Below, in pieces: positions 1-50,654 of a stretch of DNA of 64,000 nucleotides (position 1 is its first letter; every line of letters begins with the position of its first letter). This DNA comes from Rhynchopus sp. YZ270_cl-10. Lineage: Eukaryota; Euglenozoa; Diplonemea; Diplonemida; Diplonemidae. The stretch covers positions 806,001 through 870,000 of the forward strand of contig OZ037901.1 of NCBI GenBank assembly GCA_964035575.1. The letters run 5' to 3'. The notes under the pieces are model-generated. The model ran no database searches. It had not been told where the DNA came from and was given only the letters and a program-made list of their open reading frames with translations. The position numbers and the translations under genes are program-made.

Positions 1-115
1 CCAGACTTTTCGCCAGACTTTTTTTTTAGTCTGCCAGACTTTTTTTTTTGCTTTTTAAAGTCTGGGAAGTTCCAAAAAAAAGTCTGCCAGACTCTGCCAG
101 ACTCTGCCAGACTAC
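1..115. repeat. Short tandem/palindromic repeat of GCCAGACT units
   Basis: The first 115 bases consist of repeated CCAGACT units separated by T-runs, with mirrored AGTCTG units, so the stretch can fold back on itself (AGTCTGGCAGACT-like palindromes). It is cut by the window edge, so its full length is unknown. No coding potential is seen. Confidence 0.75.
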
Positions 116-846
116 CATCTATGTCAACTTCATTTTTTTGTTTTTTTGTTTTTTTTTGTACAGTACCCGTTTTTAGTCTCTTCAGAATCAATACTCTTCT
201 ATTTTCCTGAATAGAACGTATTCGTTGTTACAGGTCTTTATCGTATGATTGCTACGAAGAAGAATAAAAAACGCATGAAAGAAAAATGCCTCTGGCTTTA
301 GAGGACAATGTCACTTACGTGATATAGTCTCTCTGTCTGCCTGTCTTTCGTCTCCCCTCATTTTCCCTTACCATCTCTCATACTCAAAAAACAAAGATCT
401 TTTTATTCCCCCCCTCCTTTTTTGTATCTACCTACACACCCTACCATTTTTTTAAAATTACGAACTCCGGCTGGGGAAATGACATCATCCCTGACAACAA
501 ACTTGTAGAAGCCAGCGCAGCTGAAGCTGTGCGATAACGAATATGATAAGGTGACTAAGCACGAGAGGCTTAGTCACCTTATCATCTTATAAACTTTTCT
601 TTTTTATCACTTTAAATTACCCCCTCCTTTCTCCTCTCCTTTTTTTTTCCATCTCTTTTTACAGATTTCTTTTGCTGTGGAATAAAAACCTTACCCCCTC
701 ATCCACACGCAAATCATACACAACACCCTCCGTTCAAAAAACCCCCTCTTCTTTTTTCACTAAATCATAGAGGTTTGTCACAAAACACCTCCCCTCCCCC
801 CGTTCCTTTCTCCTCTCTTCTCCCTTTATCCTGAGGGAGATTTCTT
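116..846. other. Intergenic, no gene seen; one perfect hairpin repeat
   Basis: AT-rich and pyrimidine-rich DNA upstream of the first gene. Apart from the perfect hairpin at 545-583 it holds only homopolymer tracts and a C/T-rich leader (about 780-840) just before the ATG. Confidence 0.6.
545..593 (+). repeat. Hairpin motif A, perfect 16-bp stem copy
   Basis: Bases 545-560 (GATAAGGTGACTAAGC) and 568-583 (GCTTAGTCACCTTATC) are exact reverse complements around the 7-base loop ACGAGAG. They are followed by ATCTTATAAAC and a T/C-rich tract. It is the only copy in which the outer stem is perfect. About twenty other copies in the window keep only the inner CTAAGC/GCTTAG stem. Confidence 0.9.
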
Positions 847-2100
847 ATGTCGCCTTTTGCTGAGCCGTCAGCACCGAGGATAGATACGCGGCAGAGTCAT
901 GACGGTGACATGCCGAGGAGCACCTCAGAGGGTTGTCCCACGGTGACGATGCAGTTGGAGAGGAATACTAATTCATTTACCAGAGATGCTATGACCACGG
1001 CTACTGCACAAAATACCTCTGAATCGGGCATTTTGAGTACTCATAACTCATATGAGGAGCCATCTGCACCGAGTCTTATAGAAATAGAGCAAAGTTATGC
1101 CGACCCAACGCATGACAGCAACCCTGATGCATCGCAAAGCAGTGCTCTGTGCTGCACAGAATCGCCAATCCCAGAGGATAGAGGTGTGACACGACAGCCT
1201 GCCACACAGCTCCCGGCGCTCCCCGCTGATGTTGTTGAGGTGCGTCTTGTGGTTTCAGGGAGTCTTCTTGGTGCGGAGGTGTCCCCGTCTTCTTCTTCTT
1301 CTTCTTCTCCTTCTTCCTCTCAGTCTGAGATGCAGCCGATTACCGTTGTATCGCACCTTCGGATTGATGAGGCTTTGGTGTACAGTACAATGTATTCTGT
1401 AATAGAATCTAGTGTTCTGCATGCGTTGAATAGTGTAGCATCTCCTACAGCACCGTTGCCGCCGATGCCTGCGTTCTCCGCGGTGTGTCAAGGTACCGAA
1501 GTGCACCATCAAAACGATTGGGATGAATGCATCCGGCTGTGGTTGCGAGAGACAGGGCATAGTGTGGTGCAAAATGCGGGGCAAAATAGAGTGCGTCCTC
1601 GCGTCTCCCCTCCGTTAAACATCACTGTAGGTCCGATAGATGAGTTCTGCCTGGTAAATGAAGAGGAATACTGTGACGTCCCAGTGTGCATAGGAAACCA
1701 AGCAAAGTGTTTGTCGTTGCCGATTCCGTTGCATCTGCCATTGCCAAACGCGGCGTTTTTGGTGGAAGGGATGAAGGCAAGGCGGGTGCGTGCTGTGACG
1801 GCACTGAAAGGGTTTTCATGTCTGGGTGGGGGTGTTGAAGAGGAGGAGGAGAGGGAGGAGGTGGAGGAAGGGGAGGAGGAGGAGGAGGACAGCGCAGGCC
1901 CCGTGATCACGCTGCGAGGTGCCTCAGACCCTGCGTTGGTGCATCCGTTGCTGAGGGATGCGGAAGTCAAGGCAAAGAAACAATACCCAGAGCAAACCGC
2001 ACTGTTAGAATCTCTAGGTTACTCAGTGACTCCCCTTGTCTTAGATGGGCTGCATCACTTTGAAGGGAATGTGTACCAAGTTATTCGACAGTGCCTCTGA
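847..2100 (+). CDS. Hypothetical acidic/Ser-rich protein
   Basis: A 417-residue open frame from a true ATG, 5 bases downstream of a purine stretch. I do not recognise a family. The first ~150 residues are polar and low in complexity and end in a Ser run near residue 148 coded by TCT/TCC repeats. A more ordered part follows (about 170-320, with YSTMYSVIESSVLHALNSV as a likely helix). Next come a Glu-run (about 331-348) and a C-terminal ~60 residues ending HHFEGNVYQVIRQCL that look globular. No signal peptide or membrane segment is seen. The acidic run splits the two ordered parts and may be a linker. Antisense frames across it are shadows created by the repeats. That it is a real gene rests on length, start and codon texture only. 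Confidence 0.7.
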   Translation: MSPFAEPSAPRIDTRQSHDGDMPRSTSEGCPTVTMQLERNTNSFTRDAMTTATAQNTSESGILSTHNSYEEPSAPSLIEIEQSYADPTHDSNPDASQSSALCCTESPIPEDRGVTRQPATQLPALPADVVEVRLVVSGSLLGAEVSPSSSSSSSPSSSQSEMQPITVVSHLRIDEALVYSTMYSVIESSVLHALNSVASPTAPLPPMPAFSAVCQGTEVHHQNDWDECIRLWLRETGHSVVQNAGQNRVRPRVSPPLNITVGPIDEFCLVNEEEYCDVPVCIGNQAKCLSLPIPLHLPLPNAAFLVEGMKARRVRAVTALKGFSCLGGGVEEEEEREEVEEGEEEEEDSAGPVITLRGASDPALVHPLLRDAEVKAKKQYPEQTALLESLGYSVTPLVLDGLHHFEGNVYQVIRQCL

Positions 2101-2436
2101 TTGTCTTATTGGGGGGAGGGGGGGGAGGGAGGGAGGGAGGGGAGGAGATTTAAAAAGGGTATGGAGATCCCCAAAAGAGAGAGAGTTGTGCAAAATAAAG
2201 GATTTTTTTTTTTTTGAGTTTTTGTCGAAAACGAATTTTTGTACAGCATTTCAGGCCTTCTTTTGAGGGGGATGGGATGGAGGGGGGGATTTGGGGAGAA
2301 AAAAAAAGGAGATAAATGAGTGCTGTTATCACATTTTACTTTTCATTGTCAGATGTATGTGCATGGGAAAGTGCATTCATTATACAAATTTTCTTGGTTT
2401 TGTTTTTTTTTTAAAGCGAACACATCCTTTTCTTAG

Positions 2437-2476
2437 AGGTGACTAAGCACGAGAGGCTTAGGTTCATCTTATAAAC
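2437..2476 (+). repeat. Hairpin motif A copy
   Basis: Typical full copy: GTGACTAAGC, loop ACGAGAG, GCTTAGGTTCATC, then TTATAAAC. It lies about 340 bases after the stop codon of the preceding gene, on the same strand. Confidence 0.85.
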
Positions 2477-3536
2477 CCTTCATTTTTTCCCCCCTGGGTG
2501 GGTGTGGGATTACACACAAGCTCCCACATGCTTACAAATGCCACACAAAAAAATCTATCTTTTGCGTTCCCACCGTTCCTTGGAAGGCTTTTATTTTCTA
2601 GCTTGCTTCCCATTCATTCCTCCGCCACCCTGTTATTTTTATTTTTATTTTTTTTGAATTTTTTTGAATTTTTTTTTTGTCAAGCGAACACATATTTACC
2701 TACGTGTTTCTCTCGCACGACGCGATGTGTGTACAGTACGGATTTTCTTTTGTCACCTCATGAAATGAAGGATAAAATAAAAAACAAAGCATTTTGAACA
2801 CACTTTGCGGTTCTGGGTGACGAACCGCGTTGCAGAGCCACTCCTCACCAAAGAGGTCGAGGTGTGTGCGTTTCACCACAACCTCTCCCATGGGTTTTAT
2901 CGTGTGATGAGTGTTAAGTTTCTATTTTTCATTTTCATTTTGCTTCAGAGAGTTTAGAATAACACTGTTCAGAGGATCATCTTACCGAACCTTTCTTTTG
3001 TTCTTGAAGGATATCTTGCGGGGGGGTTTTTTACTCATCTTTTTTTCTTTTGTTCCCCTGTTGCTTTCAGGCTATTTGATTCACGTCCTTTATGATTCCA
3101 GAGGCGTTTGCTACTCAGCTTTTCTTTGTTGGTGCGGACGCTTGGAAATTATCTTTCACATTTTTTTCTTCTCTTCAACTGCGCCATTATCAAATTCACC
3201 TTATTTTATCACGCAGTGAGCGGCCACTAAGAAGAGGAGACATCCCGAGGAAACCTCCGTTACGAGGACACAGTGACAAAGAGGCAAGGAAACACACACG
3301 CCCACAATACCGGCCTCGTTGTGTTGAAGGGATGTGTACTGAAGTGCATTTTTTTTTATTGTGGAATTCCAAACGATTTTTTTTTCTTTTGTTAAGGTAC
3401 CAGCATCACCTTTCATGAAAGGGAAGGATGTGGTGCACCCCTGTCAATGCTCTCTGTTCTCGCGGGAGTATGTGAACCTGTTGTTCACCTGTCTCTTACG
3501 AAGAGACGCTTGGTTGGACGTACAAATGACACCTTT

Positions 3537-3582
3537 GCCAAGTGACTCAAACACGAGAGGCTTCGGTTCATCCAATAAAGCT
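3537..3582 (+). repeat. Hairpin motif A, diverged copy
   Basis: Reads AGTGACTCAAACACGAGAGG followed by CTTCGGTTCATCCAATAAA. The loop ACGAGAG and the GGTTCATC box are kept and the stem is eroded. Confidence 0.6.
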
Positions 3583-4021
3583 TTTTTTGGCTTTTCGTCG
3601 TAAGGTGTGTCTGTGCAGAGGTACATTCATCTTATAAGCTCTTTTCTTTCCCCTTCCCCGTTCCTCTGGAGAACCTCATGAGATAATTTGTCTACCTAGT
3701 GGTGGTCGAGTGAGGTCGTAGTCCCGTTTTGTTGCACAGAGAAAGCTGATCTTATTAAAAAATGTGCACCTAATAAAAACAATGTGTAGATCGATTCTCT
3801 TAGCATCAGAACGGAAGGACACACAGCCACGCCAGGTTTCTAGCCTTCTTGCTGTTGATTGGACTTTGCAGTGTTTCCTTTTCTCAATGGTAAGAAAAAA
3901 AAAATGCAAAAAATAAAAGAAGGGTACGTAAATTTTTAGTTGCTTTTTCTGTGTGCTGTGTGCTGTGTGCTGTGTGCTCGTAACACTATCATGTACAGTA
4001 GTATCTAAAAAAACCCCACAC

Positions 4022-5052
4022 AACTTTCAAAATGACTGACACCAAGGCCAAGAACGAGCCCACCGTCACCGAGACGGTGGAGAAGGAGACCCGTGGATTC
4101 ATGGACGGCCAGATGGACTGGGGTGCCAACGGAGGAGGTCTGTTCGAGTGCTGCAACTGCTCCCCTTGCTGTGGAGGGTACTGCTGCCTGACGTGGTGGT
4201 GCTGTGGAAGCTGCAACGGGTGCAAGCTGTTCTCGTGGGCACTGGACCAGCCGTGCTCGCTGGTGAACCACATCCTGCCGATGTGCTGCCTGCCGATGGG
4301 ATGCTTCGTGCGTCACGCCATCCGCACCAAGCTTGGTGTGCAGGCAGGAGGACCCCTTGAGGGACTTGTGGCCGATTTCCTGTGCGCATGCTGCTGTGGT
4401 GCGTGCGCGTTCTGCCAGCAGCTGCGTGGAGCGCACACTGTTGGAGGACAGGAGTCGTGGGACTTCCTCGGAAACTTCAAGTTCAACGTCAGCGCCGACA
4501 GCGGATGCAAGTCGTTCCCCCCGTTCACCCCCATGAAGTAAGTTGATCAGATGAGAAGTATACGTGCACGCCGTCTCGGTCCTTCCACTTTCTTGCCATT
4601 ACCAACGCAAGAAGCAAGGTTGGGTATGTTTAGTTGTTTGATCTGTTCTTCTCCACAAACCCTCACACCCTCCAACAGATTTTGACGAGACTGTGCCATG
4701 CACGAACCCTCCCTTTTACCAGCTCCAAGTTCGGATAGTTTTCGTTCTCGACCGTGTTACCCAACGACGATCATGCAAATGATCAGCATAGTGGTGTGCT
4801 TGGTGCATTTGTCATCCACCCCCCATCTCCGCACCTTTGCACACTGTTGCTCGCCACGTTTTATTTTCTAGTCAATATTTTATCGCTCGCTTCCTTTGCA
4901 CACTTTGTATCCGACTTTCTGTGGCGCCCCTTTCTGAGCATGACTCGCTTCGCCCTCACGTACGATTCTGTATGATGAGGTGCCCGTTTGTGTGAGTACT
5001 GCAGCGAAGGGGTGACACAGGGGATCGGGTTGTTTAGATGTGTATATGAGAT
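4022..5052 (+). repeat. Segmental duplication, left copy (pairs with 6653-7683)
   Basis: PLAC8 copy 1 plus about 510 bp of 3' flank is repeated almost base for base 2,631 bp downstream around copy 3. Identity ends sharply after GTGTATATGAGA. The non-coding flank carries only scattered substitutions (for example AAGTATAC versus AAGCATAC), so the duplication is young. Confidence 0.9.
4032..4541 (+). CDS. PLAC8-family cysteine-rich protein, copy 1
   Basis: 169 residues with 22 Cys. The PLAC8 signature is clear: clustered Cys (40-64), CSLVNHILPMCCLPMGC (75-91), the RHAIRTKLGV segment (94-103), and CACCCGACAFCQQLR (118-132). PLAC8 proteins are small membrane-associated proteins, linked in plants to metal export and cell-size control and in animals to lysosomal and placental functions; the role here is unknown. 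Two weakly hydrophobic Cys-rich stretches could be membrane hairpins. The start is fixed by a leader shared with copies 2-4 (CAACTTTCAAAATGACTGA). Six tandem copies differ almost only in the first ~25 residues. The codon choice (GGA, CTG, AAG, TGC) is strongly biased, suggesting high expression. Confidence 0.93.
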   Translation: MTDTKAKNEPTVTETVEKETRGFMDGQMDWGANGGGLFECCNCSPCCGGYCCLTWWCCGSCNGCKLFSWALDQPCSLVNHILPMCCLPMGCFVRHAIRTKLGVQAGGPLEGLVADFLCACCCGACAFCQQLRGAHTVGGQESWDFLGNFKFNVSADSGCKSFPPFTPMK

Positions 5053-15760: not shown

Positions 15761-16281
15761 TTTTTCAACTTACCTTCCTTCACCCCCCTGTAAGGGCAAC
15801 CGTAGGTGAAGTAAGGTATAGTATTGAAATCGATGTGGGGGGGGAGTAAAGGGTCAATTTTACAAAACCAGATTTTGAGGAAAATTTTAGCCGAAAATGG
15901 GCCCCACGTATAAGGAACCGGGCTCATATTTCTCAAAATTTAAGTGGTCAAAAAATTGTCCAATTTTTGAGATTGACCCCACCACTGCACGGGCGGAGCC
16001 CAAAAATGCAAATAAGGACTCTTTTCAACTTACCTTCCTTCACCCCCCTGTAAGGGCAACCGTAGGTGAAGTAAGGTATAGTATTGAAATCGATGTGGGG
16101 GGGGGAGTAAAGGGTCAATTTTACAAAACCAGATTTTGAGGAAAATTTTAGCCGAAAATGGGCCCCACGTATAAGGAACCGGGTTCATATTTCTCAAAAT
16201 TTAAGTGGTCAAAAAATTGTCCAATTTTTGAGATTGACCCCACCACTGCACGGGCGGAGCCCAAAAATGCAAATAAGGACT
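15761..16281 (+). repeat. Tandem duplication, 260-bp unit, two copies
   Basis: Bases 15761-16020 and 16021-16281 are nearly identical head-to-tail copies, both starting at TTTTCAACTTACCTTCCTTC and ending AATAAGGACTCTTTT. Differences are one extra G in a G-run and one C/T change. The unit carries GTAAGGGCAACCGTAGGTGA and no open frame, and nothing similar was seen elsewhere in the window. Confidence 0.92.
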
Positions 16282-17058
16282 CTTTTTAATTTGTTCTCTT
16301 GAAATGTGTAATTTCATGTTTTCGCGAAAAATATAACAACTGATCCTACAAGGGTTGAAGGAAGGTGGTTGAAAACAACAATAACAACACGGACAAGTAA
16401 TTGCTAAGAAAAAAACGGGTGTGCTGTGGAAAACTCCGCGCGATTTTCGAAACCACCGTAGCATCCTGGCGATTTGCTGGTGTGATCGATGTGTTGTAGT
16501 CTGTGCATTCTGTGTTCCTTCCGCACTGCTCCAACGGCGACTACAATGTCGGGAGCCTGTGGACAAAAACGAGCTGGACCACGCCGAGCCTGCCGAGCGG
16601 GCGTCCAACAGCGCTATCGAGCAGATGGTGCTACACGAAGAGGACAGCCCCCCCTTCTTGAACGTTTCAGATGCTGGCGTCCCAGTGGGTCTGGCAGTGT
16701 ACGAAGAGCGTTAGCATACCTGCAGAAGAGCAGAATGCTGGGCTTATTGTAGATTATTTCTACAGGATGGAGTTCCACATCACACCCCGTTTTTTTTTCC
16801 GATAGCAATTACTTGTTTTTTTTTTTTCCCCGCTCTCTCTCTCTCTTCCTCCACAAAATCAACCAACATCACAAATAATAATTACAAAAAAACTCGATCG
16901 TCAATACAACCAAATTATAGCAACAAAAAACACTCAGCCCTGCTTTTTTTCTCCCCTCAGCGTTACCCTCCAATACCAAAAAGGGGGGTGTTCAAATTTT
17001 CGCCCTTTTTTTTTTCGCTTTTCCCCGCTTTTTTTTTCTGTAGGCAACTCCAAAATGC

Positions 17059-18068: not shown

Positions 18069-18526
18069 TAGTATTTTTTTATACGGGAATGACCTTTTCC
18101 CCCTCTGCTCGGGGGCATATTTTTTTATGGTCTTTCTCCCCTCTTCTCCTTCTCCTTTTCCTTTTCCATTAGTTTGACCATCTGTGGTCTCATGGTCTTT
18201 CTTTCTTTTGTTTTTGTTTTGGCTTCTTTCATTGTTAAATGCATCACAACTGAACCCTCCACCGACTTCATGCAGTTGTACGTCACATCCGATATGCTCT
18301 ACTCTAGAGCACCACTGGCACAGCCAGAAGGCGTTACAGTGGAGGCGTCTGTCTGTGTGGGTGCAATATTTATATCGTGGGCACGATGGTGGGGAGGTGC
18401 CACGAACTCCCAACGCAAGGGAGTATCGAATACCTAGAGCGGTTATTTTCTTAGCCGTGACTTTTTTTTTTTTTTTTTTTTTTGTTGGGCCGTTCGTGAT
18501 GTACTGTAAAAAAAAAATAGTGAATT

Positions 18527-19290
18527 AAACCCCCCCCCCGCATAAGGTTTACATCCAATAAGGTTTACGAACCGCATAAGGTTTACGAACCCGTCTAAGG
18601 TTTACGTCCCGCATAAGGTTTACCAAGACTTATTTAATTTTGAAAAGTGGATTTTTTTGAAAAAAATATGGGATTTTCGTTGGTATCTGGTCAAAACTTG
18701 GTCGCTAGCCCGGGGGCTCCGGCGAAAAGTCAAAAATTCACTTCGATCACGAACCCGTAAACCCACAAACGAACGTGTTGAAGGACCTTGAGATAAGAGT
18801 CTTGCACCCTCTATTCTATTTTTGGCGGCCACACTGCCTATTGGAACAGCTGGAGTGGAGAGAATGTTTCTTCTCATGAAATTGGTCAAGACTCGCTTGC
18901 GAGCTACGATGCACGACGAAAAACTCGAGGACACTATGTACACAGCCCTCGAACTCCCCTTCAACGATGGCACCGGTATGGACAAAGCGATCTCGAGATC
19001 GAGGTGGATGCATTTAGGAATAACTCCAGCCAGTGCGGAAAACGTAGACAGAAGAACAAGTGCAGCTAGGTGCTGCCTCTTCGAAACATACAAGAAATAA
19101 TGTTACGTGTTCGTGCAATGAGAGGGGGCAGGTCTTACTTTAATAAAAAGAGGTGTCCTCGTAAACCTTATGCGGAACTACTTTCCGTCCCGTTAAGGTT
19201 TACGAAGGAACTAAAACCCGTGTAAGGTTTACGAACCCGTTAGTATTTACCAATAATGTATGTAAACCTTATGCGGGGGGGGGGGGTTTA
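18527..19290 (+). mobile_element. hAT-type DNA transposon remnant
   Basis: The ends are inverted: TAAACCCCCCCCCCGCATAA then GGTTTAC at 18527, and GTAAACCTTATGCG plus a G-run and TTTA at the right. The TAAGGTTTAC unit recurs about five times inside the left end and about four times inside the right, in mixed orientation, as expected for subterminal transposase-binding sites. The interior encodes a C-terminal hAT dimerisation domain. I could not find a clean 8-bp target-site duplication, possibly because the palindrome array adjoins the right end. Confidence 0.75.
18800..19100 (+). pseudogene. hAT transposase C-terminal (hATC) fragment
   Basis: The frame reads LAPSILFLAATLPIGTAGVE then RMFLLMKLVKTRLRATMHDE, closely following the hATC dimerisation signature (small residues, ER, F, then K/R-R-L). 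Only the last ~100 residues of a transposase are present; the DNA-binding BED finger and catalytic core are absent. The source element is therefore not autonomous. It ends at a TAA before the right subterminal repeats. Confidence 0.75.
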
Positions 19291-20477
19291 GGGGGTACGA
19301 CTCCAGCCATTTTTTGCGCACGGAAAATTCATTTGGCATTATCTGGTCATCTCCAAGGCAACTGCGGGTGAAAAACACCCTCAGAGTGGGTCACAGGGGG
19401 CCTGTGGGTCGAAAAACGACCCAGAAGCCACCCCAGAATACAAAAAAATGGAAAAAAATAGTGAAAAAACGGCTTTTTTCACGTTTTGGCCACTTTGGGC
19501 AAAATAGCGATTTTTCGAGAAAATCAAAAACCGGGATATTTTTTGACATCACAAAGCCTCCTTTGGCACAAATATACCCCAAAAGTGGCCTGTGAGTCCA
19601 TTCCAACCTGTTTTGGACATAATTGACACTTTTGGAAGTGTTTTTTTGGTGTTTTTAGGTCAAAAAAATGCCCAAGACGTCCCCAAGACATCCCCAAGAC
19701 ACTTTGCACACCCCCTGTTACGGTCATATTTTTTTCGTTTTTTTGCCTGAAACCCCCAAAATACCCCTCCCGGACCCCACATAGTCCCGAATATCCATCA
19801 CACACCCACTCAGAGTGAGTAGAAGCACCCCAAAAAAAATATTTTTTAAAGCCCTAAAATTGTGCTTCAGTTTCGGCAGCATCCATGTTGAAGTTGAAGG
19901 GCTTTAAAAAATATTTTTTTTGGGGTGCTTCTACTCACTCTGAGTGGGTGTGTGATGGATATTCGGGACTATGTGGGGTCCGGGAGGGGTATTTTGGGGG
20001 TTTCAGGCAAAAAAACGAAAAAAATATGACCGTAACAGGGGGTGTGCAAAGTGTCTTGGGGATGTCTTGGGGACGTCTTGGGCATTTTTTTGACCTAAAA
20101 ACACCAAAAAAACACTTCCAAAAGTGTCAATTATGTCCAAAACAGGTTGGAATGGACTCACAGGCCACTTTTGGGGTATATTTGTGCCAAAGGAGGCTTT
20201 GTGATGTCAAAAAATATCCCGGTTTTTGATTTTTTTCTCGAAAAATCGCTATTTTGCCCAAAGTGGCCAAAACGTGAAAAAAGCCGTTTTTTCACTATTT
20301 TTTTCCATTTTTTTGTATTCTGGGGTGGCTTCTGGGTCGTTTTTCGACCCACAGGCCCCCTGTGACCCACTCTGAGGGTGTTTTTCACCCGCAGTTGCCT
20401 TGGAGATGGCCAGATAATGCCAAATGAATTTTCCGTGCGTTTGGTCCCAGCCAAAATGGCTGGAGTCGTATCCCCTA
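19291..20477. repeat. Long palindrome P1 (arms ~565-577 bp)
   Basis: Left arm 19291-19854, loop 19855-19898, right arm 19899-20475. The arms are nearly perfect reverse complements, starting GGGGGTACGACTCCAGCC and ending GGCTGGAGTCGTATCCCC. The left arm lacks a 14-bp block near its outer end and 3 bases in an A/T run. There is no coding sequence; apparent frames are mirrored in the two arms. It is preceded by a G-run plus TTTA and followed by CTAGG and a G-run. It is the inverted twin of P4. Confidence 0.95.
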
Positions 20478-20487
20478 GGTGGGGGGG

Positions 20488-21277
20488 TAGGGGGGGTCAT
20501 ATCTATGTGAGAAAATGACATTTTTCAAAAATGCCCGAAAACCCCACAAAAAGGGTAAAAACCAAGAAAATCCACCCCACAGGCCCAAAAAAATGTGGTG
20601 TGCCCCGCTTTCCACCCTTTTTGTGCCTCTCAGGTACCCAAATCGCGGTTTTTAAAAAATTGCCTACCAGTGGTACCTGAGGCAGGCTATTTGTGGGCAA
20701 TTTGCAAAAACACCCTCCCACACCGGTTCCACACCGTTTTTTTGATGTTTTATGGGGCATGCGCCCCCACAGGTGCCCAGGACCACCCTGGAATCGGGTT
20801 TCTGCAACTTTCTGGGTGTTTGAAATAAAATATGGGCGTTTTTAGGCCATTTTCAGGCTATTTTGGCCTATTTTGGCCTATTTTCACTGCCTGACCGGTG
20901 TTTCAGGTTTTATGAGGTTTGAGCCCCAACAGGTGTCACGAAACACCCCAGTAACGGTTCTGTGGGTCTCCTGTGGGGTTTTGGGGGTGAAATATACCCT
21001 TTGCTCTATGTTCTGGGCCATATTGGGGTGTTTTCTGTTTCATAGTCAACCTGAAGGGCAAACCAAGGGGGCACTCAGGTACCACATGTAGGCAATTTTT
21101 AAAAAACTGTGATTTGGGCCCCTGAGAGGCACAAAAAGGGTGGAAAACGGGGCACACCACATTTTTTTGGGCCTGTGGGGTGGATTTTCTACTTTTTTTT
21201 ACCTTAGAATCGCTTTTGACAACATTTTGAAAAATGTCATTTTCTCACACTTTTAATACAGGATATGACCGCCCCTA
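20488..21277. repeat. Long palindrome P2 (arms ~200 bp, unique centre)
   Basis: Outer arms 20488-20700 and about 21065-21277 are inverted copies (shared blocks include CCACCCCACAGGCCC and AAAATGTGGTGTGCCCCG) with visible indels. They surround about 360 bp of centre that does not pair well. The arms are more diverged than in P1, P3 or P4, so P2 looks older. It ends TAGGGG and CCCCTA like its neighbours. Confidence 0.85.
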
Positions 21278-21293
21278 GGGGGGGGGGGGGGGG

Positions 21294-22503
21294 TAGGGTC
21301 TATCAAAAGGGTACTAAAAAGGGTGGCAAAAAGTCATTTTTTAAAAAAAACCCCAACCACGGCTTTCATAGTGTTTCTGACCATACCAACCCACCCACAC
21401 CCCCCCAAAAACCGTCTCAGGCCCCGAGTTTACCCTTTTTTGGCACTTCGGTGGCCCTGATTTTAAAAATTCAGGAAAAAAAAAAGGGTGTCCATGACTT
21501 CGTACCTTTTCACCCCCCCTCTGTTCCTGCATTTATTTAAAATTCAGTTTCCTCTTCTGCTTTGGGCGAGTACTGCTGGATGAAACCAGAAAATATGTCC
21601 ATTGGGACCCCAAAAATCGAATTCCGCCCGGTTTTGAGCACTTTTGACCACTTCTGAGCGACTTTTTTGCATTTTTTCAAAAGTGACCACCAACTTGTAC
21701 CTTGCCCACCCCGTAGATAGAGCAACTCACACATTCATCACGCCTCAGTGTGGGCCAGGGGCCAGAAAAGCCCCCAAAGCCACATGTTTTCACCCCAGAA
21801 CCTATCCCGAGGGGTACCCAGGCTGTTTCGGGGTGTTTAGAGGGACTTGGTGTAACTTAGAACCATGTTTCAAAAAGGGTACAGGTATTTGGTCCCTTGG
21901 GAGGGCAAGCCCTTGGTACGAGTTCATGGACACTTTTTGAAACATGGTTCTAAGTTACACCAAGTCCCTCTAAACACCCCGAAACAGCCTGGGTACCCCT
22001 CGGGATAGGTTCTGGGGTGAAAATATGTGTCTTGGGGGCTTTTCTGGCCCCTGGCTCACTGCGAGGCGTGATGAATGTGTGAGTTGCTCTATCTACGGGG
22101 GGGTGGGCAGGTACAAGTTGGTGGTCACTTTTTAAAAATGCAAAAAAGTCGCTCAGAAGTGGTCAAAAGTGCTCAAAACCGGGCGGAATTCGATTTTTGG
22201 GGTCCCAATGGACATATTTTCTGGTTTCATCCAGCAGTACTCGCCCAAAGCAGAAGAGGAAACTGAATTTTAAATAAATGCAGGAACAGAGGGGGGGTGA
22301 AAAGGTACGAAGTCATGGACACCCTTTTTTTTTTTTTGAATTTTTAAAATCAGGGCCACTAAAGTGCCAAAAAAGGGTAAACTCGGGGCCTGAGACGGTT
22401 TTTGGGGGGGTGTGGGTGGGTTGGTATGGTCAGAAACACTATGAAAGCCGTGGTTGGGGTTTCTCAAAAAATGACGTTTGCCACTAGCTTTTGATAGACC
22501 CTA
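21294..22503. repeat. Long palindrome P3 (arms ~570-585 bp)
   Basis: Left arm 21294-21877, loop about 21878-21932, right arm 21933-22503. It starts TAGGGTCTATCAAAAG and ends CTTTTGATAGACCCTA. The arms match closely, with scattered substitutions and small indels (for example in A/T runs). Its sequence is unrelated to P1/P4 apart from the terminal TAGGG/CCCTA. Non-coding. Confidence 0.93.
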
Positions 22504-22518
22504 GGGGGGGGGGGGGGG

Positions 22519-23717
22519 TAGGGGATACGACTCCAGCCATTTTGGCTGGGACCAAACGCACGGAAAATTCATTTGGCATTATCTGGCCATCTCCAAGGCA
22601 ACTGCGGGTGAAAAACACCCTCAGAGTGGGTCACAGGGGGCCTGTGGGTCGAAAAACGACCCAGAAGCCACCCCAGAATACAAAAAAATGGAAAAAAATA
22701 GTGAAAAAACGGCTTTTTTCACGTTTTGGCCACTTTGGGCAAAATAGCGATTTTTCGAGAAAAAAATCAAAAACCGGGATATTTTTTGACATCACAAAGC
22801 CTCCTTTGGCACAAATATACCCCAAAAGTGGCCTGTGAGTCCATTCCAACCTGTTTTGGACATATTTGACACTTTTGGAAGTGTTTTTTTGGTGTTTTTA
22901 GGTCAAAAAAATGCCCAAGACGTCCCCAAGACATCCCCAAGACACTTTGCACACCCCCTGTTACGGTCATATTTTTTTCGTTTTTTTGCCTGAAACCCCC
23001 AAAATACCCCTCCCGGACCCCACATAGTCCCGAATATCCATCACACACCCACTCAGAGTGAGTAGAAGCACCCCAAAAAAAATATTTTTTAAAGCCCTTC
23101 AACTTCAACATGGATGCTGCCGAAACTGAAGCACAATTTTAGGGCTTTAAAAAATATTTTTTTTGGGGTGCTTCTACTCACTCTGAGTGGGTGTGTGATG
23201 GATATTCGGGACTATGTGGGGTCCGGGAGGGGTATTTTGGGGGTTTCAGGCAAAAAAACGAAAAAAATATGACCGTAACAGGGGGTGTGCAAAGTGTCTT
23301 GGGGATGTCTTGGGGACGTCTTGGGCATTTTTTTGACCTAAAAACACCAAAAAAACACTTCCAAAAGTGTCAATTATGTCCAAAACAGGTTGGAATGGAC
23401 TCACAGGCCACTTTTGGGGTATATTTGTGCCAAAGGAGGCTTTGTGATGTCAAAAAATATCCCGGTTTTTGATTTTCTCGAAAAATCGCTATTTTGCCCA
23501 AAGTGGCCAAAACGTGAAAAAAGCCGTTTTTTCACTATTTTTTTCCATTTTTTTGTATTCTGGGGTGGCTTCTGGGTCGTTTTTCGACCCACAGGCCCCC
23601 TGTGACCCACTCTGAGGGTGTTTTTCACCCGCAGTTGCCTTGGAGATGGCCAGATAATGCCAAATGAATTTTCCGTGCGTTTGGTCCCAGCCAAAATGGC
23701 TGGAGTCGTATCCCCTA
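22519..23717. repeat. Long palindrome P4 (arms ~576 bp), inverted twin of P1
   Basis: Left arm 22519-23097, loop 23098-23141, right arm 23142-23717. Both arms keep the outer GGCTGGGACCAAAC block that P1 has lost from one arm. The loop is the reverse complement of the P1 loop, and the 3-base length difference inside the arms is mirrored, so P4 is P1 in opposite orientation. Arm-to-arm and P1-to-P4 identity look about 98-99% by eye. Confidence 0.95.
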
Positions 23718-23834
23718 GGGGGGGGGGGGGGGTTTAGCAGTTGTTCGTATAGGTAACGCAACGCAATGCTACACAGATTATCAAGAAAAAAGACAAAAAA
23801 AACAAAAGGAACATTATTTGCAGGCATATTGCTA

Positions 23835-24010: not shown

Positions 24011-24927
24011 TTTGAGAAAAAGGATCTGGCAAAATCATAAAAGTAGCGTACCGTGCGCCTGCGGCGCAAGCTTACATCACACCCTTCCCATGCTGTAAAA
24101 TAGTGCAATTTTAAGCGCGATTTTTGAAATGTTGCGTACCGTGGCTTCGCCAGGAACCTTTGGTTACCTGACTAACCTTTGGTTAGTCCATAGCCACCAT
24201 TTCTTTTATAAATTTACTAAGGTTACTGATAAGAAGGCGGACACCCACTACGGATTGCGGATCACCAGTGGCTGAAAGCTACCAAGGCACAGAGGAGGGA
24301 AGCTTTCCCGCAGAGAAGGGTTGGGGTGGTGTAGGTTGGCCGTGCATCACAAAATGCCGAGAATATTTTTCGCTGAGTTTTCCGCACAGAAAAAAATGAC
24401 TGCCTCACACAAAACCACCTTTTTGGTGGAGGCTAGGGGGGCTATATAATACCCTCTGTGGTTGGCAGGGAGGCGCGCGCGAAGCGCGCGACGACCGCTT
24501 TCAACGGGGGGAAATTTTTTTTTTTTTTTGGCCTGGAAAAAAAAAAGGTGTCGCCGTTTTGCTTTTTTCCACTTTCGGCAAAGTTAGCAGTATGCCTGAT
24601 TATTTGTAGACAACGTTTGTTAGAACGTCAAAAAAAAAACAAAAGAGCACAGTTGTTTTCCATAAACGATGCAATTTTCCTTCGCAAGGATACATTAGGT
24701 TGATCAGCGGGGAAAGAAGACCCTGTTGAGTTTGACTCTAGTCTGACTTTGTGCAGTGACATGAGAGGTGTAGTTATAGGTGGGAGGCTTTCAACAATGA
24801 AATACCACTACTCTTATCGTCGCTTTACTTATCCAATGATGGGGAGACGGCCACCTACATTCAACAAAATGAAAATACGGTCGAACGGACACATGGTGAG
24901 ATTTTATTGTTTTTTTTATTTTTTTGG

Positions 24928-40079: not shown

Positions 40080-41681
40080 ATGTATGGTCTGTTGCTGTGT
40101 GCCGCAAGCACCGTGCTTGCAAACACAAGGCAGGTGCACACTGCGCTTGGGATGACGGAGGACACACTCAACGTGCAGTGGGCGTCTGATGTGTCGAGTG
40201 CGCAGTCGGAGCTGATGTGGGGGCTTTCCTCGTCGGCACTGACCAACCACGCTGTGGGAGACGTGATGAACTTCACACAAGACAAGGGCCGCACATGGCA
40301 GACACGCACAGCAACCATGACCGGTCTGACTGTGGGGACGAAGTACTACTACAAGGTGGGTGACAGCCTGAGCGGTTTCAGCGCCGTGTTCGATGTGACC
40401 AACAGACAAGTTGCCATGCCGTACAGACACATGCTGTTTGGTGACATGGGCAACACACACGCCTACACGATCTGCTCTGCATGCACATCCAAGGCAACTT
40501 GCAACGCCACCACCTGCGCACAGAACACAACCGTGGGTCTTGTGAGCGAGGTTGAGACCTCGGGCATGTTCCTCCACGCTGGTGACTTTGGGTACGACCT
40601 GAACAGCGCTGAGGGAAAGACTGGAGACGAGTTCATGAACAACATCGAGCAGTTGGCAGCACGTGTGCCCTACATGATCAGCCACGGCAACCACGAGGAC
40701 AGCCACGGTGGCTTCGCGCACTACGCAGCAAGGTTCAGGTCGCAGCCTGCGAACTCTGGTACGATGTCATCGTCCGAGGGAACCGTGCCGAACACCCTCT
40801 ACTTCTCGTGGGACTACGGGATGGTGCACTACATCGCACTGTCGACTGAGCTGTGGCACACCATCGAGGGGAAGGACAAGGCCATCACAGAGGAATCGTG
40901 CCTGAAGTGGGTTGAGGCCGACCTGATCAAGGCCAACCTGCCTGAGAACCGTGCGAAGTACCCCTGGATCCTGGTCCACGGACACCGCCCCCTTTACAGC
41001 TCGTCTGGATCGGACACCAAGATCCGCAAGGCCTTTGAGACGATGTTCCACAAGTACGGAGTGTCCTTCTCTGTGAACGGCCACCAGCACAACTACGAGC
41101 GCTCGTGGCCCACCCTGGACGACAAGTCTGAGAAGAGCTACGAGAACCCGAACGCCACCATCTACATCGTGACTGGTGCCGCAGGAAGCCACGAGATGCA
41201 CACTCCTTTCTGGGAGTCGCAGCCGAAGTGGTCTGCCTTCCGCTCAAACACCTTTGGATACACCCGCATGATTGTCTACAACTCCAGCCACGTCCACTTC
41301 CAGCAGATCCGCACCGACCCCACCCTCTTCCCCCTCTCTGGATACGGTGACATCATCGACGACTACTGGGTGGTGCAGGGCCACCAGGGTGGCTTCAACC
41401 CCCTCTTCGCACCGAAGGAGACCGGCATTGGCGGAACGTCATACGACCACTTTGACCCCACCTTCCGCCCGATGCTTGGTGAGACCGACAAATCGATCCC
41501 CCTGTACAAGGTGATCCAGGCATACAAGGCCAAGCACGGTTCTGTTGCCTATGTGCAGAAGCTTGATGAGCTTCTGGCATTCCTGAACAAGAACGCTCAG
41601 TCGACTGGTGAGTGGGAGGACGGCAACCTGGCCGCAGAGGACCAGGCTGCTGCTCAGTGGATCCACGGAGGACAGCAGTAG
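40080..41681 (+). CDS. Secreted purple acid phosphatase, copy 1
   Basis: 533 residues. The signal peptide is about residues 1-16 (MYGLLLCAASTVLANT). An N-terminal fibronectin-III-like domain (about 17-110) is followed by the metallophosphatase domain with all five metal-ligand blocks: GDMG (121-124), GDFGY (168-172), GNHE (203-206), VHGH (299-302) and GHQH (334-337). The Tyr of GDFGY is the charge-transfer ligand that colours these Fe-Me enzymes. A Cys-rich insertion (CSACTSKATCNATTC, 132-146) between blocks I and II is shared by all four copies. The C-terminal ~100 residues follow the catalytic core. It probably releases phosphate from external phosphomonoesters. No membrane anchor is seen. 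GDFGY differs from GDFAY in the other copies. Confidence 0.95.
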   Translation: MYGLLLCAASTVLANTRQVHTALGMTEDTLNVQWASDVSSAQSELMWGLSSSALTNHAVGDVMNFTQDKGRTWQTRTATMTGLTVGTKYYYKVGDSLSGFSAVFDVTNRQVAMPYRHMLFGDMGNTHAYTICSACTSKATCNATTCAQNTTVGLVSEVETSGMFLHAGDFGYDLNSAEGKTGDEFMNNIEQLAARVPYMISHGNHEDSHGGFAHYAARFRSQPANSGTMSSSEGTVPNTLYFSWDYGMVHYIALSTELWHTIEGKDKAITEESCLKWVEADLIKANLPENRAKYPWILVHGHRPLYSSSGSDTKIRKAFETMFHKYGVSFSVNGHQHNYERSWPTLDDKSEKSYENPNATIYIVTGAAGSHEMHTPFWESQPKWSAFRSNTFGYTRMIVYNSSHVHFQQIRTDPTLFPLSGYGDIIDDYWVVQGHQGGFNPLFAPKETGIGGTSYDHFDPTFRPMLGETDKSIPLYKVIQAYKAKHGSVAYVQKLDELLAFLNKNAQSTGEWEDGNLAAEDQAAAQWIHGGQQ

Positions 41682-42634
41682 AGGAGCTATTCGGAGGAAA
41701 AGACGGCAGTGGAGAAACTGCTGAAGTACTAAAACGGAGTGATAACGTTTTGATTAATTTCATTATTTTACACCCAAACGTGTGCCCTGTGACTTTTGAT
41801 TTATGCAAAGGTGGTTCATAGATGTATGTGCATGTGGTCACATATGTTTACGGAGTTTTGTTTTCTTTGTCTTTACTGCGTCGGCACGCCCGTGCGGCAA
41901 GTGTTTGATGCTGAAGCATGCATCGTTTTATTTGCGATATGCCAAAAATAGACAAAAAAAACCGAAGTTGTCGCGCCACATACGAACCATGGTAGAAAGG
42001 GATGTGCAGGGAGTGTTGTGAGGGCATGATTCCACTCTGGACAGGTTCTTTTCGTACGAATGGCTTCGTTGGATGAGACAGCAGCTTTTTCGCATGAATG
42101 TCATGTTGTGATTCTGTTTGTTTGTTTACTTTTTTTTAACGGTGCTTACGTCAGGTAAAGACGTTTTGCGCTTTCAGATTCCCTCTCTTTTTTACCGTTT
42201 TCTTCTCGCTTTTCCCCCATTTTTTCCTTGTTGGAGCCAGTCTTCATATGGAGCAGAAGATGTGATGAAGGTGGCAACTTTTCACTAAGTCGCCGCTGTC
42301 AACACAAAACGCAGCTCCCCACCCCCCTACGCAATTGGATGTGTCGCTTGGTGACATGTTTGTTGGGGTGGTTAAAAGTATGAAAGCTGTCTCGCAGTTC
42401 AGTATTACATATTTTCTTGAATTGTCTGAATTCGTCGAGACCCCCGGCTCCAAGACCCTCCCCCTAAGGAAACAACGTTCTCCATCCGTATAGCTCTTTA
42501 TGTACAACGAAAACCCGATCCACAACCATCACTTAGCCAAAAAAAAAAAAAAAAAAGAGGGGGTGTTTGTGTTTTGAATAGTATGTTCTACCCAGCCAAA
42601 CCCCAGTCACAACCTCAGATATAAAGAACGCACA
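41682..42634. other. Intergenic between phosphatases 1 and 2
   Basis: A diverged motif B (about 42147-42190: GTGCTTACGTCAGGTAAAG, then ACGTTTTGCGCTTTCAG) and the conserved promoter block at 42565-42634. Nothing else is recognised. Confidence 0.6.
42565..42634 (+). promoter_or_regulatory. Conserved upstream region of phosphatase 2
   Basis: Matches 40010-40079 almost base for base (CCTCAG instead of CCACAG before ATATAAAG). The identity stops abruptly at the G/A-rich run upstream. Confidence 0.6.
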
Positions 42635-44242
42635 ATGTATGGTCTGTTGTTATGTGCCGCAAGCACCGTGCTTGCAAACACAAGGCAGGTGCACACTGCG
42701 CTTGGGATGACGGAGGACACACTCAACGTGCAGTGGGCGTCTGATGTGTCGAGTGCACAGTCGGAGCTGATGTGGGGGCTTTCCTCGTCGGCACTGACCA
42801 ACCACGCTGTGGGAGACGTGATGAACTTCACCCAGGACAACGGCCGCACATGGCAGACACGCACAGCAACCATGACTGGTCTGACTGTGGGGACGAAGTA
42901 CTACTACAAGGTGGGTGACAGCCTGAGCGGTTTCAGCGCTGTGTTCGATGTGACCAACAGACAAGTTGCCATGCCGTACAGACACATGCTGTTTGGGGAC
43001 ATGGGCAACACACACGCCTACACGATCTGCTCTGCATGCACGGCGAGCACAACTTGCAACGCCACCACCTGTGCACAGAACACAACTGTGGGTCTTGTGA
43101 GCGAGGTTGAGACCTCGGGCATGTTCCTCCACGCTGGTGACTTTGCGTACGACCTTGACAGCAATTATGGCAAGACTGGAGACGAGTTCATGAACAACAT
43201 CGAGCAGTTGGCAGCACGTGTGCCCTACATGATCAGCCACGGCAACCACGAGGACAGCAAGGGTGCATTCGCGCACTACGCAGCAAGGTTCAGGTCGCAG
43301 CCTGTGAACTCTGTTCCCGCCATGATGACGTCGCCGGCGGGCACCGTGCCGAACACCCTCTACTTCTCGTGGGACTACGGGATGGTGCACTACATCTCGA
43401 TTTCGACTGAGCTGTGGCACTCCATTACGGGGAAGGACGGCAACATTACGAAGGACGCCTGCGTGAAGTGGATTGAGGCCGACCTGATCAAGGCCAACCT
43501 GCCTGAGAACCGTGCGAAGTACCCCTGGATCCTGGTCCACGGACACCGCCCCCTTTACAGCTCGTCTGGATCGGACACGTCGATCAGGTCGAGCTTGGAG
43601 ACGATGTTCCACAAGTACGGAGTGTCCTTCTCTGTGAACGGCCACCAGCACAACTACGAGCGTTCGTGGCCCACCCTGGACAACAAGTCTGAGAAGAGCT
43701 ACGAGAACCCGAACGCCACCATCTACATCGTGACTGGTGCCGCAGGAAGCCACGAGATGCACACACCCTTCAGCAAGGATCAGCCGGACTGGTCTGCCTT
43801 CCGCTCAAACACCTTCGGGTACACCCGCATGATTGTCTACAACTCCAGCCACATCAACTTCCAGCAGATCCGCACCGACCCCACCCTCTTCCCCCTCTCT
43901 GGATACGGTGACATCATCGACGACTACTGGGTGGTGCAGGGCCACCAGGGTGGCTTCAACCCCCTCTTCGCACCGAAGGAGACCGGCATTGGCGGAACGT
44001 CGTATGACCACTTTGACCCCACCTTCCGCCCGATGCTTGGTGAGACCGACAAATCGATCCCCCTGTACAAGGTGATCCAGGCATACAAGGCCAAGCACGG
44101 TTTAGTGGCCTATGTGCAGAAGCTTGATGAGCTTCTGGCATTCCTGAACAAGAACGCTCAGTCGACTGGTGAGTGGGAGGACGGCAACCTGGATGCAAAG
44201 GAGCAGGCTGCTGCTCAGTGGATCCACGGAGGACAGCAGTAG
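42635..44242 (+). CDS. Secreted purple acid phosphatase, copy 2
   Basis: 535 residues, over 90% identical to copy 1, with the same signal peptide and all five metal-binding blocks (GDMG, GDFAY, GNHE, VHGH, GHQH). Differences cluster in a few surface stretches: CTASTTC in the Cys-rich insert, DLDSNYGK after block II, SVPAMMTSPAG near residue 226, the SITGKDGNITKD loop and SKDQPD. The patchy pattern, with long identical tracts between short divergent loops, suggests gene conversion between the tandem copies. It lies about 950 bp downstream of copy 1 and shares its promoter block. Confidence 0.95.
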   Translation: MYGLLLCAASTVLANTRQVHTALGMTEDTLNVQWASDVSSAQSELMWGLSSSALTNHAVGDVMNFTQDNGRTWQTRTATMTGLTVGTKYYYKVGDSLSGFSAVFDVTNRQVAMPYRHMLFGDMGNTHAYTICSACTASTTCNATTCAQNTTVGLVSEVETSGMFLHAGDFAYDLDSNYGKTGDEFMNNIEQLAARVPYMISHGNHEDSKGAFAHYAARFRSQPVNSVPAMMTSPAGTVPNTLYFSWDYGMVHYISISTELWHSITGKDGNITKDACVKWIEADLIKANLPENRAKYPWILVHGHRPLYSSSGSDTSIRSSLETMFHKYGVSFSVNGHQHNYERSWPTLDNKSEKSYENPNATIYIVTGAAGSHEMHTPFSKDQPDWSAFRSNTFGYTRMIVYNSSHINFQQIRTDPTLFPLSGYGDIIDDYWVVQGHQGGFNPLFAPKETGIGGTSYDHFDPTFRPMLGETDKSIPLYKVIQAYKAKHGLVAYVQKLDELLAFLNKNAQSTGEWEDGNLDAKEQAAAQWIHGGQQ

Positions 44243-44742
44243 AGGAGCTGATAAATAGAAGTGTTATGTAGAACACCATTGTTCCCCCCACACCCTGGCA
44301 GATGGCTGCGCATAGGTTCGTCTTACATTAAAGAACAGTGTCTGGACACCTATTTTTACACATTTTTTGCCAACCCCCCTTGTGTACCGTGTGCTGCTTG
44401 TTATTGTTTCCCTTTTTTGGAGTCCTTTTTGGGTTCATAGTGGTCCCTAGAGGCTCTGCCCCCTTTGGACACTGTACCCGAAACGTCACAGCTGTTTTAT
44501 TGACCCCGCTCTTTTGTTTTAACCTTCTGCCATTTTGCTGGGTCAAAAAATGCGATACGATATGATTGAAAACCATTTTCCTTTTTCCAAGCACTCAGTC
44601 CTTTAAACAAATTCGGTTTCTGGTTATGGGCTGTGCACGGCATGTATGTGTCATTATCAGCTCATCCAGACCCGCAATACGTAGACAATTTTAAGGATGC
44701 AATGATCCAGAAAGGTTCATTCCTGCTTTTATCCCCCCGAAA

Positions 44743-44795
44743 GTGTCGGTGCCTGCGTCCCAGAGGCGTTTGCACTATCAACTTCATCTTTTTTT
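44743..44795 (+). repeat. Dispersed motif B copy (near consensus)
   Basis: TGTCGGTGCCTGCGTCCCAG, AGGCGTTTGCACTATCAACT, TCATC and a T-run. It is the clearest copy of the motif B core and lies about 20 bases from the hAT insertion site. Confidence 0.8.
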
Positions 44796-44810
44796 TTTTG
44801 TCGAACAGTC

Positions 44811-45572
44811 GACGATGGCAGGGCAGGAGCTTGGAATATGGGTTTGGGGCAAAATCGGGTCAAATTCTGTTAAATCGGGTCAGGTCCCGAGCTTTTCCGC
44901 CTTCGGCGGAAAAGCTCTTGTGAAGACAAACACATGTACAATGAGAAGGCACGTTTCACAAAATGGTACACGTTGATGATACACAAATGTTGCACCACCC
45001 CCGCGGAATGCATGTTGCCCTTGACACTGGCGATGAGGTCATCAAGGTAGGGTTGCGCAATGGAGGTGTGGAATGTGTGCGTAGGCCCTCGCCAGTTCAG
45101 GTACTCTCTCTGGGCAGGTGTACCCTTCGAGCAAACGTCGGAGGGCGTTCCGTATCCCCGGCAACACTTGTCACTGCCTGAGCCCCTCTTTGGTGTGTCA
45201 CCAGCGAGTTGATATAAGGTTGCACCCGTCTGTTGCAATCCCATGATATTTTGCCCAAAGGTGGGACCTAACGGCTAGGTCGAGTTCGGCATCCCTCTTG
45301 GGTTAGGGTTTGATCGGGGTGGAGCGCACGTATTAGGGCATTCTGGCTTCTTTGAGCTTCGTGCTCGTCGCGATGGGGTCACATAGCAGTTCCTCATCCT
45401 TCTCAGACCCCCTCATGCGACAAGTAGAGTACCCTACTTTTTTGATTTTTTCCCTCAAAAATCTATAGTTTTTTTTTTTTTTTTTGCCCTGACCCGTTTT
45501 TTTCTATGGGGCCTAAGGAAATCGGGTCAATCTGACCCGATTTAACCCCCAAGCTCCTCCCCTGGACGATGG
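44811..45572. mobile_element. Non-autonomous hAT element with 8-bp target-site duplication
   Basis: The element occupies 44819-45564 (746 bp). The terminal inverted repeats are CAGGGCAGGAGCTTGG (left) and CCAAGCTCCTCCCCTG (right), 15 of 16 matching. It is flanked by a perfect 8-bp duplication GACGATGG at 44811-44818 and 45565-45572. CAGGG ends plus an 8-bp duplication are diagnostic of hAT elements. Subterminal AATCGGGTCA units occur twice near each end in mixed orientation. Inside lies a strong GAGCTTTTCCGCC/GGCGGAAAAGCTC hairpin (44889-44917). The minus-strand frame 44870-45244 has no recognised transposase domain. The intact duplication suggests a fairly recent insertion. Confidence 0.9.
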
Positions 45573-45858
45573 CCACCAAGCTATGGTGCACGATTGCACC
45601 TTTCTCTGCACACATTGCCAAAGAGGGGAGGGTTGCCTTCCCCTTATGGTCTTGTGGGGTGAGGGATTTCCCCCTCTCCTTTCATGCGAGAACTGTCCTT
45701 GCGTCATGTCACTGTGTTTATCACAAATTATATTGCACAAACGTTAGTATAAACCCTTCAATTCTATTTTTTGTTTCCCGCCTTCATTTTTTGCAATCTA
45801 CACAGCCAAAATTACAGAAAAATTGCCAAAAGTTTTGCCCCCAAAAAGATAACCAAAA

Positions 45859-47493: not shown

Positions 47494-48257
47494 TGTTCTG
47501 TGTGCCTGTGTGAGTTGCGTCGCACACACACAGCCGCCTTGACTTGACCTCACGACTGCGTGATGTGTGCTAACGTTGTTTGCTTCTTTCTTCTGCTGTT
47601 GACTGCCTCCACACGTCTGTCCACAAAGTCCTACCTTTACACCTCTAACCAAACTCGCCGCAGTGCACATGGCTGCCTGCAGAGCGCTCTTAGGCATGGA
47701 GTGGACACGTGTGTTGGTGTCAGGAGCTTTGCCTTTTGTCTTTTGTTTTTTTGCTTCTTGTCTGTACCAACATAAAATATCTGCCTTTTGTATTTTGCTT
47801 TTAAATGGAAGAGCCAATGGTCTTATGAAGGCCTTTGGCAATAACAATGGGTTCATGTTTCGACGACATTCTTTTATTGATTTTTGCTGTTTCATTTGCA
47901 ACGCCTAACCCCTCACCGATGCTTGAGGTACTGAGAACACCCCAAACTCCTCGCTTTATTGTGGTCATCCAGCAATCTCGTACGGTGATACCTTTCCAGA
48001 TGTGTTTCATCTTTCACGCCTTTTTGAAAAAGTGACTGAGCACGAGAGGCTTAGGTTCATCTTGCCAACTAGGCGTATCTTTTTAAAACTTTGCTTTTCT
48101 TTGACATTATTTTTAATATACAGTGGAGCTTGCACAGGTGGCAACTGCACTATTCCAACAATTCTTCAAAATAAAAGTCACTCATTATTTCCTCCGATCC
48201 TCCCGCACCATCCTCCCACATCCCAGACCACCACCAGAATTCACAACACCCAACAAA
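47494..48257. other. Intergenic; motif A and a CTATTCCAACAA unit
   Basis: Motif A at 48031-48070, and at 48123-48180 GTGGAGCTTGCACAGGTGGC, AACTGCACTATTCCAACAAT, TCTTCAAAATAAAA, a unit also present near 37790-37860. No gene is supported. Confidence 0.6.
48031..48070 (+). repeat. Hairpin motif A copy
   Basis: AGTGACTGAGCACGAGAGGC, TTAGGTTCATC, TTGCCAAC. One stem change (CTGAGC). Confidence 0.8.
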
Positions 48258-50539: not shown

Positions 50540-50572
50540 GTGACTAAGCACTGTGAGTCTTAGATGCATCTT
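50540..50572 (+). repeat. Hairpin motif A copy (diverged)
   Basis: TGTGACTAAGCACTGTGAGT then CTTAGATGCATC, followed by a T-run. Confidence 0.65.
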
Positions 50573-50654
50573 TTTTCGTGATCTTGTATTGTGGGTGATT
50601 TTGTTTCCCTCCCGAGCTTCCGATTTCTTTTCAACTTTACCCCCTCTTTTAAAA

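Follow-up and report, generated by a model that had tools for sequence, protein, structure and literature searches.

Introduction

As far as we searched the literature, the nearest analogue of the structures described here is MuTAnT, a group of Mutator-like elements (MULEs) of Medicago truncatula that have a foldback structure, lie in TA microsatellites and make 9-nt duplications (accessible part of PMC4486113). Our subject is a row of four long palindromes, P1 to P4, joined by runs of G, in contig C69 of the diplonemid Rhynchopus sp. YZ270_cl-10. The stretch analysed, positions 806001-870000 of that contig (64 kb), is called the window, and coordinates refer to it unless a contig is named. 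Going by the accessible MuTAnT text, both systems have long ends of foldback type and short copies that are not autonomous (218 were reported for MuTAnT); ends that begin with GGGG in the published end mask, and insertion into a simple repeat that is itself duplicated, are further common traits. The Rhynchopus elements differ from this known kind in their target, G-homopolymers rather than (TA)n, in a duplication of 11 bp rather than 9 nt, and in forming arrays of several families, whereas that text mentions no rows in which the repeat links unrelated families. An autonomous copy with mudrA is known for MuTAnT, but none was found here.

Other systems share single features with the palindromes. 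In FARE1 (PMC4486113, in part) and in Tetris of Drosophila (PMC4079207, in part) long inverted arms fill much of the element, as they do here. Micron of rice and TAFT of maize insert into microsatellites, but the excerpt of PMC4486113 gives these as TA repeats, not G-runs. Within the Euglenozoa, TATE mobile elements have been reported for Diplonema papillatum, which belongs to the same host group; unlike the palindromes they are telomere-associated by name and carry proteins (PMC10161547, in part). The same genome paper, in its accessible part, asks for rigorous identification of transposable elements. Our limited literature search, covering titles and the starts of abstracts among those listed, turned up no transposon that we recognised as specific for G-homopolymers. 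The first-pass annotation of the window had recognised no named family with this structure, and to that extent it holds. Foldback elements classically make a 9-bp duplication, and we know of none that targets G-runs; nor do we know of a foldback structure or an 11-bp G-run duplication in TATE elements. The telomere repeat TTAGGG resembles the TAGGG with which the palindromes begin.

P1 to P4 and their relatives elsewhere in the genome are very probably copies of foldback DNA transposons that lie beside G-runs, duplicate 11 bp on insertion, are likely moved in trans and likely build rows by serial insertion.

Structure of the array

The array and the sequences that join its members are as follows.

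19278-19288, + strand: left copy of the 11-bp target duplication of P1, GGGGGGGGGTT, read from the sequence
19289-20477, + strand: P1, 1,189 bp, family E foldback element, one outer end L and the other R, in the orientation opposite to that of P4
20478-20487, + strand: spacer between P1 and P2, GGTGGGGGGG, 10 nt with one T
20488-21277, no strand assigned: P2, 790 bp, weakly palindromic, TAGGGG...CCCCTA, of a different family
21278-21293, + strand: joint between P2 and P3, G16 (C69:827273-827298 in the genome joint search)
21294-22503, no strand assigned: P3, 1,210 bp, palindromic, TAGGGTCTATC...GATAGACCCTA, of a third family
22504-22518, + strand: joint between P3 and P4, G15 (C69:828499-828523 in the genome joint search)
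22519-23717, - strand: P4, 1,199 bp, family E foldback element whose ends are both R-type
23718-23732, + strand: run to the right of the array, G15
23724-23734, + strand: putative right copy of the P1 target duplication, GGGGGGGGGTT, beyond P4 and presumed to pair with the left copy

All four elements start with TAGGG and end with CCCTA. The array is bounded by G12 at its left and by G15 at its right, and every run is G on the + strand. This agrees with the first-pass annotation in the number, sizes and ends of the elements; its row began at 19273, whereas P1 starts at 19289, and the G-run spacers that it described are pure in two cases, the first being interrupted by a T. Its three near-perfect palindromes were also found. 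When the left half of each element was globally aligned with its reverse-complemented right half, 575 of 608 columns were identical in P1, 567 of 621 in P3 and 587 of 604 in P4, against 287 of 443 in P2. Three of the four are thus near-perfect palindromes, P2 being the weak one. The predicted RNA fold of P4 is a single hairpin of -1147 kcal/mol, a figure that comes without a shuffle control at that length.

The interiors fall into three groups, as had been proposed. The best match between P1 and P4 is in inverted orientation, at 98.8%, and judged by their sequences the two are one family in opposite orientations. P2 and P3 gave no match at E<=1e-3 to P1, to P4 or to each other. Ends like theirs occur elsewhere: one similar to that of P2, TAGGGGCGGTCA, adjoins another G-run at locus L017, and the right end of P3 (104 bp) was found again at L045. 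The palindromes are not chance structures, because near-identical copies lie on many contigs.

Copies in the genome and their flanks

The assembly searched has 152,426,579 bases in 126 contigs. One arm of P1 gave at least 80 matches, all 97-100% identical over the part matched, a lower bound since 40 of 711 candidate places were scored. The common end TAGGGGNTMCGACTCC occurs 638 times genome-wide, against once for the control; continued as TACGACTCC it marks the family of P1 and P4 (E), and as TCCGACTCC a sister family (E'). An E-type end with a different next base, TAGGGGRTACGACTCCB, had 0 matches. The end motif also matched once in each of 13 stretches of viral contigs, which we take as chance.

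The loci examined include three sets: 30 of the 80 P1-arm matches (L001-L030), the first 10 among 29 matches to a pattern that requires a G-run (L031-L040), and loci picked among the first 100 of the 638 end matches, partly for unusual spacing (L041-L050). Among the loci examined, the 14-letter ends lying beside G-runs of at least 9 fall into 27 distinct types, including those of an element X described below, and E ends stand 23 times to the left and 30 times to the right of such a run. The search for other copies proposed in the first-pass annotation has thus produced both the 638 ends of E and E' and further TAGG-ended types at G-runs, and a lack of copies, which would have refuted its reading, is not what was observed.

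A run was counted if it had at least 5 G or C and lay at most 4 letters from the element. All 36 complete copies of E or E' had a run on at least one side; 29 had one on both sides, and in 28 of these the polarity was the same. Four of the copies (L031, L033, L038, L039) came from the search that required a G-run, and when they are set aside the figures are 32 of 32, 25, and 24 of 25. Seven loci at which an E copy had its other end damaged, or ran beyond the stretch there, were left out of this set (L004, L005, L016, L019, L023, L026, L027).

We then compared the flanks of these 28 copies, which lie between two runs of equal polarity, scoring a duplication when the k letters to the left of the element equalled the k letters to the right and included at least one non-G letter, for k from 6 to 16. 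Six copies had an exact duplication at 11 bp (L010, L013, L015, L042, L049, L050). There was one at 8 (L048), one at 14 (L028), and none at 6, 7, 9, 10, 12, 13, 15 or 16. When flanks of different copies were paired as a control, 1.46% of 756 pairs matched at k=11, so that about 0.4 would be expected where 6 were observed. Two further copies, L014 and L021, are compatible with an 11-bp duplication if their runs differ by one base in length. Insertion therefore duplicates 11 bp of target, mostly G. The earlier reading of the palindromes as distinct members of a single class that inserted into G-runs is supported.

The genome has 7,063 G-runs of at least 11, of which 365 directly follow CCCTA, against 1 when the pattern is read backwards. 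The pattern CCCTA, at least 8 G, at most 24 letters, TAGGG had 99 matches genome-wide and 0 in the control; two of the 99 share one run, and 24 contain other letters, some of them not clear joints. There are 75 element-to-element joints of pure G, 8-32 long with a median of 15. The P2/P3 and P3/P4 joints are among them and the P1/P2 joint is absent, owing to its T.

The outer ends of 24 E copies are of two kinds, L and R. Relative to these ends, the 42-nt loop at the centre of the element lies one way in 13 copies and the other way in 8, and the remaining 3 have two R ends. The arms of E can probably recombine or convert with each other, because the loop is found in both orientations and 3 of 24 copies have ends of the same kind. 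There are few variable columns besides the L/R difference, which suggests a recent spread. In P1 the loop occupies 19856-19897 and in P4 23099-23140; it contains ATGGATGCTGCCGAAACTGAAGCACAATTTTAG, a 10-codon frame on the + strand in P4 and on the - strand in P1, which might be a relic of the start of a transposase.

Probable growth of the row

The element to the left of P1 has inverted ends with a C-run or G-run.

18526-19288, no strand assigned: neighbouring element, TAAAC10-GCATAAGGTTTACAT ... ATGTAAACCTTATGC-G12-TT, then TA

When one end is reverse-complemented and compared with the other, both read TAAAC(10-12)GCATAAGGTTTACAT, and 18-bp subterminal tandem repeats lie within. The array sits in the right-hand G-run of this element, which seems, from its sequence, to be the source of the run that hosts the array.

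The 11-mer G9TT is found to the left of P1 and again to the right of P4. This recurrence makes P1 likely the first to have landed, a conclusion that depends on two T's. P1 would then have inserted into the G-run at the terminus of the neighbouring element, and P2, P3 and P4 would have followed into the right-hand G-run of P1. Insertion into a G-run with an 11-bp duplication would regenerate the target each time, and since G-runs would flank every newly landed element, rows are likely to grow by serial insertion.

Search for a transposase

No reading frame of at least 120 amino acids lies inside P1, P2, P3 or P4, and a transposase supplied from elsewhere is likely to move such elements. A DDE transposase would make the staggered cut. 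The best candidate is one from a MULE, in view of how long the duplication is, of the extended foldback arms and of the local MULE copies in A/T-homopolymers. MULE target duplications range from 8 to 11 bp, a range that includes the 11 bp found here, and long inverted arms are present in P1, P3, P4 and the 24 E copies.

MULE transposase domains are present in the genome, with 12 PF10551 matches, of which five fall in open frames 988-1,088 amino acids long. PF00872 had 3 matches, at no place beyond those of PF10551. PF18758 (KDZ) had 0 matches, but the control genomes gave none either. The four MULE copies with both ends set (L061, L064, L065, L066, the last by its outermost ends) all have an A/T-run on either side, with equal polarity left and right. 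They are like the palindromes in this and in their complex inverted ends, and unlike them in lying in runs of A or T, in ends that begin GGGA rather than TAGG, and in carrying the transposase domain. Homopolymer targeting may be a habit of local MULEs. Differing ends do not exclude the MULE superfamily, because families differ in their ends. The best reading is that the palindromes are MULE-like in behaviour and candidate members of the superfamily.

Four candidates for an autonomous partner were considered and rejected. L041, at 5.4 kb the longest E copy found, is by eye an ordinary copy with nested repeats. The 2.7-kb E' copy at L042 holds a piece like a long interspersed nuclear element (LINE) with a poly-A tail; 256 amino acids of its 333-aa frame match frames elsewhere of up to 2,736 aa, the closest at 97-100%, and the LINE class is inferred. 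L082 contains a hAT-like element separate from the TAGGG elements. L083 has subterminal minisatellites and no frame of at least 120 aa; the element there (positions 56-4287 of the locus) is 4.2 kb long, with TAGGGTCAGCGACTCC ends and C-runs on both sides, and it contains a 1.1-kb palindrome, while ACCTGGTCA minisatellites lie close to each end.

Element X at TA joints

Another element, X, reads TA-GGCATA...TATGCC-TA, where CC precedes the left TA in the 14 left ends listed and GG follows the right TA in the 14 right ones. It measures 213-1,354 bp where both ends are present, several copies have TACTG-type simple repeat arrays, and it was found in L005, L006, L011, L012, L016, L024, L029, L035, L044, L045 and others. 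In L005, L006, L024, L029 and L035, where both X ends are present, E or E' comes first, followed by TA, X, TA and a G-run. At the loci examined, X ends stood beside G-runs 11 times on the left of the run and 0 times on the right. X thus sits in the joint CCC-TA-GGG made by TAGGG elements. Four other TATGCCTA words (L034, L038, L066 and window position 36679) were set aside since their inner letters differ from those of X.

The chances are about even that the two kinds form a two-tier community, in which TAGG-ended foldback families would insert only into G-homopolymers, copying the target each time, and X almost only into the resulting CCC-TA-GGG joints. The word in L038 tells against this, as it could mark an X end that has diverged and lies away from any joint of this kind.

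Alternative explanations

The G-runs could belong to the ends of the elements and be carried along, with nothing targeted or duplicated. Runs do abut nearly every copy, and the unrelated element at 18526-19288 seems to have a C/G-run within its inverted ends. A run within an inverted end would, however, give opposite polarity on the two sides, where 28 of 29 copies have the same, and the 11-mers include outside letters that differ between copies (GGGGGGGGGTT, CGGGGGGGGGG, GAGGGGGGGGT), which makes this account very improbable. We give as little credence to insertion at TA dinucleotides between G-runs, with a TA duplication like that of Tc1/mariner elements. Copies do read ...TA-GGGG...CCCC-TA..., and at the joints of E with X one TA is common to both partners. 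Such a target would, however, need a pre-existing tandem 11-mer duplication around the TA at each site, whereas the 11-mers are copy-specific and lie outside the TA, which is not the whole of the duplication. The joints with a shared TA are explained by X, which itself takes TA, CTAG or CCTAGG.

A relation to hAT elements is unlikely, though it has better prospects than either of these. TAGGG fits the hAT end consensus, hAT-like genes are present in the host, and an array at L082 holds a hAT-like frame of 588 aa (judged by eye, without a family search). The duplication is 11 bp, not 8, and the hAT-like element of L082 has other ends (CAGTGTTG) and its own 8-bp duplication. Long palindromes and G-homopolymers are both hard to sequence, and the array might be an assembly artefact or a set of mis-joined palindromes. 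We consider this the least probable account, given 75 pure-G joints spread over many contigs and the copy-specific duplications. It is weakened further because later insertions lie in or across joints and arms: a mariner (DDE_3) inside an E arm at L005, the piece at L042 assigned to LINEs from its poly-A tail, and the hAT-like element of L082 (by eye), which lies between the same 8 letters, GGGGTAGG, exactly across a joint of G-run and E.

Foldback transposons inserting into G-runs with an 11-bp duplication account best for these observations, and several points weigh against them. The duplication at L048 is only 8 bp and that at L022 is one base off. Seven of 36 copies have a run on one side only, with X on the other side in all seven, and one of 29 has runs of opposite polarity (L017). 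Most duplications are uninformative because they are pure G, the run lengths are assembly values, and the seven loci with a damaged or out-of-stretch E end stand outside the count. What an insertion duplicates, which the first-pass annotation had proposed to define from empty sites, has been defined from the flanks: comparison of the flanks of the loci examined, among about 70 rows listed, turned up no whole insertion with a paralogous empty site. It did turn up cases in which one neighbour element adjoins a G-run that lacks E (L008 compared with L038). Nearly all private changes among the 24 E copies are in one arm only, and conversion between arms is therefore not constant. No transposase gene was tied to TAGGG ends; 10 of the 12 PF10551 places were inspected, and none had such ends at G-runs. 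The MULE loci L062 and L068, each with one end set, have no run directly at that end.

Other features of the window

Two tandem copies of 261 bp lie at 15762-16286; they are 99% alike, and each has a G8 or G9 run. The sole Rfam match in the window is a fragment of eukaryotic large-subunit (LSU) ribosomal RNA at 24736-24900 (RF02543, 64.4 bits), in line with the scattered 28S pieces of D. papillatum described in the accessible part of PMC10161547.

Four genes for purple acid phosphatases, all oriented alike, lie at 40080-53759, and a frame like a ubiquitin-conjugating enzyme (45859-47493) lies between the second and third. Two Diplonema papillatum proteins (53% and 51%) are among the homologues of the phosphatase at 42635-44242, and so are transcriptome sequences with the prefixes Rhum (59%), Sspe (51%) and Hpha (46%), the last of which we take to be Hemistasia. 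The other two prefixes are read as the diplonemids Rhynchopus humris and Sulcionema specki, named in the accessible part of PMC12621601. The homologues and the LSU fragment make a diplonemid host probable.

Implications

Near-perfect palindromes of more than 1 kb occur in number in this nuclear genome assembly, and the host belongs to the diplonemids, which are abundant marine protists. A transposon that targets G-homopolymers and duplicates its target would not use up its own sites, and would offer models of target-site ecology a clear natural case. If the two-tier community is real, insertion sites would multiply with the elements, and arrays could grow without being limited by the supply of targets.

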